Positions 28,061 through 55,938 of a stretch of 64,000 nucleotides of DNA are shown one piece after another. Location of the stretch: positions 124,001 to 188,000 of the forward strand of contig CAMYID010000023.1 of the NCBI GenBank assembly GCA_947258435.1. Reading direction: 5' to 3'. Numbering within the stretch: the first letter of the stretch is position 1; each line of letters starts with the position of its first letter. Both the position numbers and the translations under genes were made by a program. The notes below the pieces were generated by a model. The model did no database searches, had not been told where the DNA came from, and was given only the letters and a program-made list of their open reading frames with translations. The stretch is from an uncultured Alphaproteobacteria bacterium. Its GTDB lineage: Bacteria > Pseudomonadota > Alphaproteobacteria > UBA11222.

Positions 28061-29620
28061 CTAGACGGTTGCGGTCAACGCCACCGGCATTGTCTTGTCC
28101 CGTTTGACAAGCAGCCGGTTCAGCGCATTCACATAGGCGCGCGCACTGGCCACAAGCGTATCGGGATCCGCCCCCTGGCCGGTCACCGCCTTGCCGCTCT
28201 GCTCCAGCCTGACGCTGACTTCCGCCTGCGCATCGGTACCTTCGGTTACGGCATGCACCTGGTAAAGCTGTAAATTCGCCTCATGCGGATAGAGCTCGTG
28301 AATGGCATTGAAGATCGCATCAACCGGTCCATTGCCGGTTGCTGTGGTCTCCCGCACCTCGCCGCCAATATCGAGGGACAATGTCGCCTGTTGCGGTCCT
28401 TTTGTCCCGGCGGCAACCGCCAGCGAAACAAGCCGCATCGTCTCCTGACCACGCAGCATCTCATCGCTGACCAATGCTACAATATCTTCGTCGTAAATCT
28501 GCTTTTTCCGGTCCGCCAGTTCCTTAAAACGCACAAAGGCGTCCTGAATGGCATTCGGCCCCAGATCAAAGCCCATTTCCTCAATTTTCTTGCGGAATGC
28601 GTGCCGGCCCGAATGCTTGCCCATGACGAGCGAGCTTTGATGCACGCCGACACTTTCGGGAGTCATGATCTCATAGGTTTCAGTATGCTTCAGCATGCCG
28701 TCCTGATGGATACCGGACTCATGGGCAAACGCATTCTTGCCGACAATTGCCTTATTGTACTGCACCGGAAAGCCCGTGGCGTTCGAGACAAGCCGTGATG
28801 CCACGGTCAGCTGCTCAGACACCACACCGGTTGTATAGGGTAAACGGTCGCCCCGCACCTGCAAGGCCATGACGACCTCCTCCAACGCGGCATTACCGGC
28901 ACGTTCACCGATTCCGTTGATCGTACATTCGATCTGACCCGCGCCATTGGCAATCCCGGCCAGGGAATTGGCAACAGCAAGCCCCAGATCATTATGGCAA
29001 TGGGTCGAAAAAACCGCCTTGTCACTATTGGGAATGGTGGCGATCAGATCAGCGATCAGCTTGCCATACTCTTCCGGCGTCGCGTAACCGACCGTATCGG
29101 GAATGTTGATCGTCGTCGCCCCGCACCGGATCGCCGCATCCACACATTTGCACAGGAAATCCCACTCGGTCCGTGTCGCGTCTTCTGCAGACCATTCCAC
29201 ATCGCCGCACAGGTTCCGCGCATGTGTAACGCTTTCAACAACAGCTTCAAGCACATCTTCGGGGCTCATCTGCAGCTTGTGCTTCATATGCACAGGGCTT
29301 GTTGAGATGAATGTATGAATGCGGGGCCGGCTAGCGTGAGTGAGCGCCTCCCATGCCCTGTCAATATCCTTCAGACCCGACCGGGCGAGCCCGCAAACGA
29401 TTGATTTATCAATAATTTTTGAAACTTCGCGCACCGATTCAAAATCACCGTTCGATGCGATCGGAAAACCTGCTTCGATAACATCAACACCCATATCCTC
29501 GAGCATTTCGGCAATGCGCAGCTTTTCTTCCAACGTCATCGACGCGCCAGGCGACTGTTCACCATCGCGCAATGTCGTATCGAAGATTTTGATTGGTTTG
29601 GCGTCCTGTGTGCCGGTCAT
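28061..29620 (-). CDS. leuA: 2-isopropylmalate synthase
   Basis: A 519-residue cytoplasmic enzyme that condenses acetyl-CoA with 2-oxoisovalerate, the first step of leucine synthesis. HMGL-like TIM barrel (about 8-280) with DTTLRDGEQSPGASM near the N-terminus and metal ligands in STHCHNDLGLAVANS. The C-terminal LeuA domain for leucine feedback covers about 370-505. The ribosome binding site AAGGA lies nine bases before the ATG, and its sequence is complementary to a Leu-codon run about 110 bases upstream. Confidence 0.97.
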   Translation of the reverse strand: MTGTQDAKPIKIFDTTLRDGEQSPGASMTLEEKLRIAEMLEDMGVDVIEAGFPIASNGDFESVREVSKIIDKSIVCGLARSGLKDIDRAWEALTHASRPRIHTFISTSPVHMKHKLQMSPEDVLEAVVESVTHARNLCGDVEWSAEDATRTEWDFLCKCVDAAIRCGATTINIPDTVGYATPEEYGKLIADLIATIPNSDKAVFSTHCHNDLGLAVANSLAGIANGAGQIECTINGIGERAGNAALEEVVMALQVRGDRLPYTTGVVSEQLTVASRLVSNATGFPVQYNKAIVGKNAFAHESGIHQDGMLKHTETYEIMTPESVGVHQSSLVMGKHSGRHAFRKKIEEMGFDLGPNAIQDAFVRFKELADRKKQIYDEDIVALVSDEMLRGQETMRLVSLAVAAGTKGPQQATLSLDIGGEVRETTATGNGPVDAIFNAIHELYPHEANLQLYQVHAVTEGTDAQAEVSVRLEQSGKAVTGQGADPDTLVASARAYVNALNRLLVKRDKTMPVALTATV

Positions 29621-29629
29621 TTTCCCACT

Positions 29630-29752
29630 TCCTTATCCTTGTGCCCCGTTGCTGACAATCGTCTTGCGGGGCCTTGTCTTGTCCAGGTTTCGATCTCCCC
29701 TAAACGCCCGGCCCAAATCACAAGCCTGCCGACGCCTAGGGGCGGATAAGGA
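29630..29752 (-). promoter_or_regulatory. Candidate translational attenuator of leuA
   Basis: On the minus strand TCCTTATCC (29752-29744) is a perfect nine-base complement of GGATAAGGA (29638-29630), which contains the leuA ribosome binding site. Between them lie a 10-bp stem with two G-U pairs (29733-29742 with 29697-29706) and a 6-bp stem GCCCCG/CGGGGC (29643-29648 with 29667-29672). The upstream complement falls on the Leu-Leu-Leu-Ile codons of a short frame. No terminator T run is present, which favours control of translation. Not proven. Confidence 0.5.
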
Positions 29753-29879
29753 GAAGCTCCGGAATTAGCGCAGCACCGTGCGGAATGCAGGGAAGGTCAC
29801 CATGCACAGCAACAGGCGCAACCGCGTCGTCAAACGCCGGCCGGCCTAACCCTGGCTGCACATTGCCTCTACCCGTCAT
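29736..29879 (-). CDS. Putative leucine leader peptide
   Basis: A 47-codon frame upstream of leuA ending ALIPELLLIRP-stop. Three consecutive Leu codons and one Ile lie five to two codons before the Arg-Pro end. A weak AGGTG is about seven bases before the ATG at 29879; internal starts are possible. The body of the peptide is not Leu-rich and shows no known family, so only the tail is suggestive. If real, ribosome stalling on the Leu codons would uncover the leuA ribosome binding site. Confidence 0.4.
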   Translation of the reverse strand: MTGRGNVQPGLGRPAFDDAVAPVAVHGDLPCIPHGAALIPELLLIRP

Positions 29880-29949
29880 CAAGACACCTAATCGCTGTGG
29901 GCACCCGATTGTCCGGCTGCCCGGGCTTTCTAGTCAACTGTCTAACAAG

Positions 29950-29970
29950 CAGGTTCTGAAAACCAACCTG
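29950..29970 (-). terminator. Inverted repeat downstream of lysR
   Basis: CAGGTT, nine bases, AACCTG, followed on the minus strand by CTTGTT. It lies about 150 bases past the lysR stop in the 502-base gap before leuA. It could be a weak terminator or an operator. Apart from this and the leuA leader I see nothing in the gap. Confidence 0.3.
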
Positions 29971-30122
29971 TTGGGAAACACACTTGCCATCAATACGTAA
30001 AGGCAAGCTAAAGACCAAGCATAAATCGCATGAAAGCATCGAATCCGCAAGTCGCAAGCCAGACAAATTCTCAAACTTTTCAGGCAAATTTGTGGCATTG
30101 GCGCTGTGCGCAGTGATCAGCA

Positions 30123-31013
30123 CTAATTTATGCCACGCAGTCTTTCACGCCGACTTTGCACCAAAGTCACCACCGAATCCACCAGCAAGCGGATACGCGC
30201 AACTTCCCGCGCTTGCCAGTGCGTAACAAGCCACAATTCCTGATGCCCGACCGCATCGGGCCCTGCAATACGGGTCAACCCGGGCAACTGGTCGGCCATA
30301 AAGCACGGCAAGCAGGCAAACCCCATTGCCGATTGTACAGCGGCAAGCCGGCAGGACGCATCATTTGAACGGAAAACCACATCACTGCCGGCCGAACAAT
30401 GCCCGTTCATCCATTCCGCGGGCCCGGATGCCGGCTCGTCATGGGCAAAGCCGATCAGGGGGAGTCTGGCGATATCAAGCGGGCCGCGCCCGCGCCGCGC
30501 CAAGAGTTCAGCCGCCCCATAAAGACCGTAACCTATCTCGCTCAGCTTGCGGGTCAGCATATCCCCCTGCACCGGCGCGCCATAGCACAGAGCCGCATCA
30601 AGATTGCTCAGCGCCGTCGGCGGCAGGCCACGGATGGTGGACAATTCCACAAGCAGGGCCGGCTGTTCGATCCGCAACTGACGCAGACGCGGCGCAAGAA
30701 AATAGCCGGCAAATGCAGCCGGCGCCGCAAGCTGCACGCGCAGCTCAGTCCCCGCGCCATCTTCCCCGAAACCACGCTCGATCCCGGCAAGGCGCTGCTG
30801 CACCGGCCGCAATGCGGTAACAAGCCCCGCCCCCTCTTCTGTCAGTTGATAGCCCGCCCTGCCACGCACGAACAGACGCACCCCGACCGCTTTCTCCAGC
30901 GCGGAGATACGCCGCAATACAGTAGATGCATTAACTTCCAACGCCTCCGCCGCGGCCGTCAGACTACCTGAATCCGCTACAGCGAGCGCAAAACGCAAAT
31001 CGTCCCAATTCAT
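30123..31013 (-). CDS. LysR-family transcriptional regulator
   Basis: A 296-residue regulator. Winged helix: WDDLRFALAVADSGSLTAAAEAL and VNASTVLRRISALEK (about 3-45), typical of the short-effector-binding LysR branch that has Thr-Val in the recognition helix. The effector domain covers about 90-285. I chose ATG 31013 because it opens with the family MNWDDLRF; an upstream TTG has no support. It lies 98 bases after the enoyl-CoA hydratase-like gene on the same strand and may regulate it. Confidence 0.85.
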   Translation of the reverse strand: MNWDDLRFALAVADSGSLTAAAEALEVNASTVLRRISALEKAVGVRLFVRGRAGYQLTEEGAGLVTALRPVQQRLAGIERGFGEDGAGTELRVQLAAPAAFAGYFLAPRLRQLRIEQPALLVELSTIRGLPPTALSNLDAALCYGAPVQGDMLTRKLSEIGYGLYGAAELLARRGRGPLDIARLPLIGFAHDEPASGPAEWMNGHCSAGSDVVFRSNDASCRLAAVQSAMGFACLPCFMADQLPGLTRIAGPDAVGHQELWLVTHWQAREVARIRLLVDSVVTLVQSRRERLRGIN

Positions 31014-31111
31014 GCCACCAACCAATTGCAGGAAAGCAAAACTTTATTGCGTTTTTACAGCAATTGGTCTTCGGAAGATACCGAAAGCGGTCGCACGGGC
31101 AGAACAGAGGG

Positions 31112-55861: not shown

Positions 55862-55938
<77 letters not shown>

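Follow-up and report, generated by a model that had tools for sequence, protein, structure and literature searches.

The gene leuA encodes 2-isopropylmalate synthase, and in the window (the whole 64,000-nt stretch of alphaproteobacterial DNA analyzed here) it is preceded by a short frame that ends in leucine codons. An initial annotation of this locus proposed that these codons hide the leuA ribosome-binding site until leucine runs short, with the caution that CTT and CTC leucine codons resemble an anti-Shine-Dalgarno sequence by nature. The question is thus whether the complementarity is part of a leucine-sensing switch or a by-product of the codons that spell leucine.

The leuA locus of the window

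The protein encoded by leuA in the window matches the NCBIfam profiles NF002087 (4.9e-260) and TIGR00973 (4.6e-216). The 47-codon frame ending LLLIRP-stop that had been described upstream of it is present (29879-29736, Table 1). Its ATG is at 29879, its TAG at 29738-29736 and its product is MTGRGNVQPGLGRPAFDDAVAPVAVHGDLPCIPHGAALIPELLLIRP (47 aa); in the mechanical list of open reading frames its start is TTG 29882, one codon further upstream. Within the leader, TCCTTATCC (29752-29744, Leu, Ile and Arg codons) is, as had been claimed, a perfect 9-nt complement of GGATAAGGA (29638-29630) in the leuA ribosome-binding site. In the window alone this match is suggestive, as an event of about 1% by chance: when the leader peptide was recoded synonymously according to the codon usage of the long ORFs in the window, 114 of 10,000 recodings had a complement of at least 9 nt to the 30 nt before leuA. 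We consider the nine-base pairing firm because the comparative tests described below back the single-sequence match.

The 10-bp stem reported over the leader stop codon was also recovered: CCCCTAGGCG (29742-29733) pairs with CGTTTAGGGG (29706-29697), and G-U pairs account for two of the ten. The 6-bp stem reported before the ribosome-binding site (GCCCCG/CGGGGC) fared less well: it is present in the window and visible by eye in the same-genus genome, but it is unrecognizable by eye in the sister-genus alignment and therefore probably lies outside the conserved device. No minus-strand terminator-like site was found within 29550-30200, and the stop-codon hairpin has no U-run. A candidate promoter upstream of the leader is weak (one found, 0.5 expected in shuffles).

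Table 1. Features of the leuA leader region, in window coordinates.
Feature	Position	Strand	Remarks
leuA (2-isopropylmalate synthase; putatively controlled gene)	28061..29620	minus	ATG at 29620
Leader frame, 47 codons + TAG, end ELLLIRP-stop	29736..29879	minus	upstream of leuA
Closing helix, 5' strand UCCUUAUCC	29744..29752	minus	within Leu-Leu-Ile-Arg codons; covariation
Closing helix, 3' strand GGAUAAGGA	29630..29638	minus	includes leuA Shine-Dalgarno core AAGGA
Stop-codon hairpin, 5' arm CCCCUAGGCG	29733..29742	minus	carries stop codon
Stop-codon hairpin, 3' arm CGUUUAGGGG	29697..29706	minus	7 of 11 predicted pairs changed on both sides
6-bp stem, 5' arm GCCCCG	29667..29672	minus	genus only
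6-bp stem, 3' arm CGGGGC	29643..29648	minus	
Possible leader Shine-Dalgarno AGGTG	29885..29889	minus	by eye; AGGTG also in same-genus genome
Candidate -35 box TTGACT	29932..29937	minus	paired with GACAAT 29913-29908; consensus match alone

Further upstream, a minus-strand ORF (30123-31025) looks by eye like a LysR-type regulator. The genome of the window also encodes a second LeuA-like protein (L002, G000:C24:180164-181672, 30% identity).

The leader is widespread in Alphaproteobacteria

The initial annotation had raised the possibility that relatives keep leuA and lose the frame. We collected 82 upstream regions, comprising the best 80 of 583 confirmed LeuA loci, the window and a same-genus genome. 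A strict pattern of a Leu-codon leader with a stop hairpin was found before leuA in 71 of these 82 close loci, and it was absent from the other 11 (L006, L009, L014, L017, L027, L038, L039, L040, L041, L072, and L083), of which L038 has a degenerate version of the leader. A leuA without the frame is thus, by the strict pattern, the case in a minority of loci. The 71 loci together with three more from the family of the window form the 74-locus set used below.

In an even draw of 289 genomes across the class Alphaproteobacteria, 88 contained a match (E<=0.01) to a covariance model of the leader (R1); this is a lower bound because the filters are strict. For 88 of the 89 R1 matches a LeuA gene lies downstream on the same strand within the 1 to 1.5 kb fetched, and in 82 of 87 measurable loci no more than 130 nt separate the hairpin from the assigned start (the longest gaps are 406 and 417 nt). 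These start codons were assigned by script and are wrong at least for L098 and L157; L098 was omitted from the class pairing sample and is represented in the 74-locus set by a manual entry, L086, and L157 was removed by the linker filter. The sole R1 match without a LeuA gene after it (L175, G199:C20) has an E-value of 0.003, is itself the second, weak match in G199, and is possibly due to chance. In the genome of the window R1 gives one strong match (1e-12) and the next has an E-value of 0.39; the three matches at E<=10 are on contigs other than that of L002. A phylum-wide draw of 299 genomes, whose class make-up is not stated, gave 53 genomes with an R1 match, all from the class of the window.

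The leader matched no family of Rfam 15. At gathering level the window gave one tRNA, at E<=10 the leader region gave two chance matches and no leader family, and 20 relatives at gathering level gave two tRNAs and no leader. The sole gathering-level match of the window is a tRNA gene on the plus strand (55862-55935). A search of plasmid DNA with the leader returned one match, with an E-value of 0.8.

The leucine codons covary with the start region of leuA

Duplex energies were computed between two segments of each locus, the 27 nt that precede the hairpin and the 50 nt that lead up to the leuA start. The own pair of each locus was then set against all mismatched pairs after removal of row and column means. 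The mismatched pairs share the codon bias of the leaders, so this design answers the caution about anti-Shine-Dalgarno resemblance. The first sample consisted of 62 non-redundant loci, after removal of nine near-duplicates from 71 (the window was kept instead of L004). Own pairs were at -19.0 kcal/mol versus -16.4 kcal/mol for mismatched pairs (z -6.5), a difference reached in none of 5000 permutations. The class sample started from 88 loci with LeuA, of which 87 were usable (L166 was lost, no hairpin arm being found), 79 were left after removal of three loci from the family of the window and of linkers of at least 132 nt, and 69 after removal of near-duplicates. Own pairs were at -18.8 kcal/mol versus -14.7 kcal/mol for mismatched pairs (z -10.8, 0 of 5000 permutations). 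The two samples are nearly, not wholly, independent, because L121 of the class sample is identical in sequence to L021 of the first.

Ten controls in the first sample (three segments further upstream, two leuA segments, the reversed leader, the hairpin interior, and the leader against three other stretches) gave z-scores from -2.5 to +2.7, the value of the reversed leader being reached by 25 of 5000 permutations. Seven controls in the class sample ranged from -2.7 to +1.4, and the values of two upstream stretches were reached by 30 and 47 of 5000 permutations. There is thus a background of similarity within a genome; it is small and well below the pairing signal.

For the analyses of leader type, perfect complements, pairing probability and masking, 130 of 152 loci were used. 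Leaders were divided by the codon at their middle position into a CGA type (n=55, z -10.0) and a CTN type (n=68, z -5.5; reversed control -2.6), and seven further loci were too few for testing. At least eight perfect complementary bases were present in 33 of the 130 own pairs, compared with 4.35% of mismatched pairs (permutations: mean 5.9, maximum 16). When complements were required to keep one fixed register, the signal was weaker, with 6 of 61 loci versus 1.1 expected and a permutation maximum that was also 6; this test is too strict, as the register shifts between lineages. There was no own-pair advantage in 14 of 62 loci.

Individual loci illustrate how the two strands change together. 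In L085, from the same family as the window, a double compensatory change gives TCCTTATTT/AAATAAGGA versus TCCTTATCC/GGATAAGGA in the window. Within this family, at least eight perfect bases are found in the window and L085 only, and the other sister-genus loci L005, L086 and L088 are below eight. Further versions of the Leu run and its partner include TCCTTATCAG/CTGATAAGGA in L013, CCTTCGACTTAGGTG/CACCTGAGTCGAAGG with one G-U pair in L070, and GATTCTTCG/CGAAGAATC in both L146 and L162. The partner reaches past the Shine-Dalgarno sequence in L012, L070, L073 and L114, and in some lineages (e.g., L010 and L011) it lies mostly just 5' of it. On the leuA side, the pairing probability is greatest (0.37-0.38) between positions -15 and -11 relative to the start codon, and its mean never exceeds 0.38. 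The covariation between the Leu run and the ribosome-binding site envisaged by the initial annotation is thus seen in both samples and in both main leader types, and these comparisons strongly support that pairing between the Leu run and the start region of leuA has been kept by evolution.

Coding features of the leader and the stop-codon hairpin

Across the 71 loci of the strict pattern, the last 12 leader codons contain 4.97 leucines in frame (3.97 without codon -4, which the pattern fixes) versus 1.51 and 1.39 in the other two frames, and a looser screen that demanded at least four leucines in the last 14 codons gave the same picture. Leaders with a single leucine in the last 12 codons are rare (3 of 148) and the final codon is proline in 140 of 148. 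Codon -4 is leucine in 100% and codon -6 in 93% of leaders, percentages that are biased upward because the search pattern and the model partly fix both codons. In 148 of 157 loci the hairpin contains the stop codon (71 of 74 in the earlier set). The kept leucine codons, the final proline and the stop codon inside the hairpin fit the pattern expected of codon sensing. The openness and length of the frame are not discriminating: 39 of 71 loci have an open leader frame with a start, compared with 31 and 9 for the two alternative frames.

The choice among leucine codons is skewed. CTT makes up 50% of the leucine codons of the leaders (n=301), or 35% when the fixed codon is left out (81 of 230), versus 7% in the leuA genes (n=2433), where CTG dominates, and 18% in the long ORFs of the window. 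This choice would be explained by a double constraint, in which the same bases code for leucine and mask the start site.

A function for the encoded peptide itself was also considered. Of the codon changes that separate the leader of the window from that of the same-genus genome, 4 are synonymous and 10 non-synonymous, peptides within the family are dissimilar except for the last codons, and N-termini are unalignable outside the genus. A functional small protein is disfavored because the peptides of the family diverge outside their end and the non-synonymous changes are many.

In an alignment of the hairpin from 64 of the 74 loci, with a nested structure modelled, 7 of 11 predicted pairs have both partners changed in one or more of the 64 sequences. 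These co-changes include TGA swapped with TAA or TAG and matched on the opposite arm. A T-rich tail follows the hairpin in one of 74 loci, and the linker between the hairpin and leuA is 43-124 nt long in the 74-locus set. Comparison thus establishes, at the level of sequence, a conserved leader, a stop-codon hairpin and a covarying helix before leuA.

Several variations on this layout were observed. Nine of 157 loci (L022, L048, L052, L096, L146, L152, L160, L162, and L167) have kept the Leu run and the hairpin and have no stop codon at the usual hairpin place. The hairpin interior is near-invariant in one group (GGGCCGGCYGGGC...GCCTGGGC; e.g., L024, L053, and L071), which perhaps exceeds the needs of base pairing alone and may reflect a tertiary contact or a protein site. 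In 55 of 130 leaders an arginine codon, CGA, is placed between two conserved leucine codons (e.g., L010, L070, L103, L114, and L128), with peptide ends such as LRLxCP-stop. This codon may owe its retention to pairing or to slow decoding.

Predicted folds and masking by a ribosome

In the predicted fold of the window, the whole of GGAUAAGGAAG is paired with the Leu run and the stop-codon hairpin is nested inside; a 30-nt ribosome footprint placed over the leucine codons largely releases GGAUAAGGA. The masking analysis was rerun with a Shine-Dalgarno sequence located for each locus in place of a fixed window. Averaged over the 130 loci, a mask over the Leu run raises the predicted unpaired fraction of the Shine-Dalgarno sequence from 0.31 to 0.44 (p 2.6e-8). 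In the window, the predicted accessibility is 0.15 unmasked, 0.41 under this mask and 0.94 with the whole leader covered, and masks further upstream give 0.14 and 0.05, with no rise over 0.15. The corresponding predicted means over the 130 loci are 0.37 for a mask over the adjacent upstream stretch and 0.31 for one further upstream. The predicted gain is modest and not universal: it exceeds 0.2 in 43 of the 130 loci and is below -0.2 in five, and with the fixed Shine-Dalgarno window (-15 to -5) it is smaller (0.38 to 0.46 on average, 0.25 to 0.31 in the window locus). A mask over the stop codon gives a predicted mean of 0.39, and 0.36 in the window versus 0.41 for the Leu-run mask. Since a ribosome at the stop codon would free the start almost equally well, repression would have to rely on prompt release.

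A model for leucine control of leuA and its alternatives

We propose that the leuA leader acts as a translational attenuator responsive to charged leucyl-tRNA, and we put the probability of this reading at roughly 75%. The leader peptide would end in leucine codons just before a stop codon housed in the hairpin. When leucine is plentiful, ribosomes would finish the leader and depart, the stop hairpin would fold, and the adjoining stretch of leucine codons would pair with the ribosome-binding region of leuA, which would then be poorly translated. Under leucine shortage, the 5' strand of the helix would lie beneath a ribosome held up at the leucine codons, so that the ribosome-binding region stays free and leuA is translated. 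The codons of the sensor would thus form half of the lock. From the comparisons, which support the attenuator interpretation of the initial annotation, we infer that the leader is translated, that ribosomes stall in it and that leuA output is affected. The initial annotation had also placed the switch on translation for want of a T run, and the single T-rich tail among 74 hairpins agrees: the lack of a U-run fits control of translation rather than of transcription.

The same observation bears on two alternatives that act on transcription. In classical attenuation, the stop hairpin or one downstream would serve as an intrinsic terminator whose formation depends on ribosome stalling, and a Leu-rich leader peptide with RNA structures that affect each other is indeed what the enterobacterial leu leaders have; we give this very little weight, given the near absence of T-rich tails, the lack of a minus-strand terminator-like site within 29550-30200, and the failure of Rfam leaders to match the window or, at gathering level, 20 relatives. 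Attenuation that depends on Rho, with leader translation or release exposing the linker to the factor and the closing helix modulating this, needs no intrinsic terminator and is compatible with the linker lengths of the 74 loci (43-124 nt) and with a covarying partner that sometimes lies 5' of the Shine-Dalgarno sequence. It leaves unexplained that the partner centers on the start of leuA (peak at -15 to -11), and we regard it as unlikely.

A regulatory protein or other factor could instead bind the structured leader, translation of the leader being secondary. The strongly conserved hairpin sequence speaks for such a site, but conservation of the stop codon inside the hairpin and of leucine codons in frame would be unexplained without translation, and the Streptomyces results that have suggested a protein come from an element other than the alphaproteobacterial one, which makes binding of this kind quite improbable. 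The complement could finally be an accident of CTT and CTC codons that resemble an anti-Shine-Dalgarno sequence. Complementarity is indeed partly generic, in that mismatched species pairs bind too (-14.7 to -16.4 kcal/mol), but at constant bias the excess of own partners was reached in none of 5000 permutations in either sample, CTT is enriched in the leaders, and the partner is often longer than the Shine-Dalgarno sequence (L012, L070, L073, and L114). We consider an accident scarcely credible.

If the attenuator reading is true, a large bacterial class would regulate its first leucine-specific step at translation, in a way that sequence alone reveals. For genome annotation, the element would indicate where leuA starts and flag a short, possibly translated ORF.

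Relation to known leader systems

The enterobacterial leucine operon leader, which we take to be Rfam RF00512, resembles the present element in that a Leu-rich leader peptide senses the supply of leucine before a leu gene. It differs in that no U-run terminator and no Rfam match were seen for the alphaproteobacterial element, whose pairing partner is the start region of the gene itself. In the translational attenuators of erm and cat genes, a ribosome stalled in the leader frees a sequestered Shine-Dalgarno sequence, and by analogy the alphaproteobacterial element most likely works in this way. The signal there is a drug with nascent-peptide arrest, whereas here it would be uncharged leucyl-tRNA at codons, and these sensing codons would themselves supply the 5' strand of the helix that sequesters the start.

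A similar base stem was predicted in 2005 for the actinobacterial LEU element (PMC1262725). That element is a leader with a Leu run before leuA, whose leucine codons are described as pairing with the leuA Shine-Dalgarno sequence around a pseudoknot. An upstream ORF with a run of leucine codons before leuA is thus common to both, as is a base stem between this run and the leuA Shine-Dalgarno sequence, which in Alphaproteobacteria is supported by covariation and in some lineages is mostly 5' of the Shine-Dalgarno sequence; on the same partial text, a classical attenuator is described in neither. The base stem of the LEU element holds a conserved pseudoknot or an alternative hairpin, whereas here it holds the stop-codon hairpin (a nested structure was modelled), and the LEU element is from Actinobacteria whereas the present one is from Alphaproteobacteria, with a LeuA of the TIGR00973 class in the window. 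Seliverstov et al. (2005) favored regulation by a protein, since previous findings in Streptomyces disagreed with classical attenuation, and one statement there, if transferable, counts against a model of occlusion (PMC1262725). Alphaproteobacteria may offer a second lineage in which to examine the LEU element.

Among other actinobacterial reports, the available text on Streptomyces lividans gives the leuA leader MRFGLLLLSCRGEGL and describes the terminator as missing (PMC8079986), and that on Corynebacterium glutamicum gives a leuA leader with four consecutive leucine codons (PMC4046766). In the portions available of further reports, one names an alphaproteobacterial ilvB leader and is silent on leuA (PMC1273637), another leaves leuA unmentioned (PMC4833913), and those on leader peptides of Caulobacter (PMC4117421) and Sinorhizobium (PMC10117765) leave a leuA leader unmentioned, although for Sinorhizobium a translated small ORF upstream of leuC was validated. 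Among the matches listed in the open literature, none describes an alphaproteobacterial leuA leader, and two subscription articles (Vitreschak 2004 and Lopatovskaya 2010) may list one. The kind of device is known; its lineage and layout appear to be new.

Two classes of LeuA behind one kind of leader

In three loci (L167, L169, and L171), the leader precedes a LeuA protein that, as far as the partial proteins go, fits PRK03739/TIGR00970 far better than TIGR00973. This LeuA class is presumably the usual actinobacterial one. The same kind of leucine leader thus appears, from these sequence matches, to serve two LeuA classes, and either a swap of the enzyme behind a kept leader or a transfer of the leader is possible. 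By eye, L157 also has a LeuA of the PRK03739/TIGR00970 class behind its leader.

A broader reading is that this is a minimal switch, in which the sensing codons are the sequestering strand, that it extends across Alphaproteobacteria and both LeuA classes, and that it is possibly the same ancient device as the LEU element. We hold this combination to be doubtful; if true, leuA would be governed by a widespread module of translational leucine attenuation, one able to persist when the enzyme it controls is replaced. Two Streptomyces plasmid entries are annotated as citramalate synthase. Several alphaproteobacterial leaders end in LLLLSCP.
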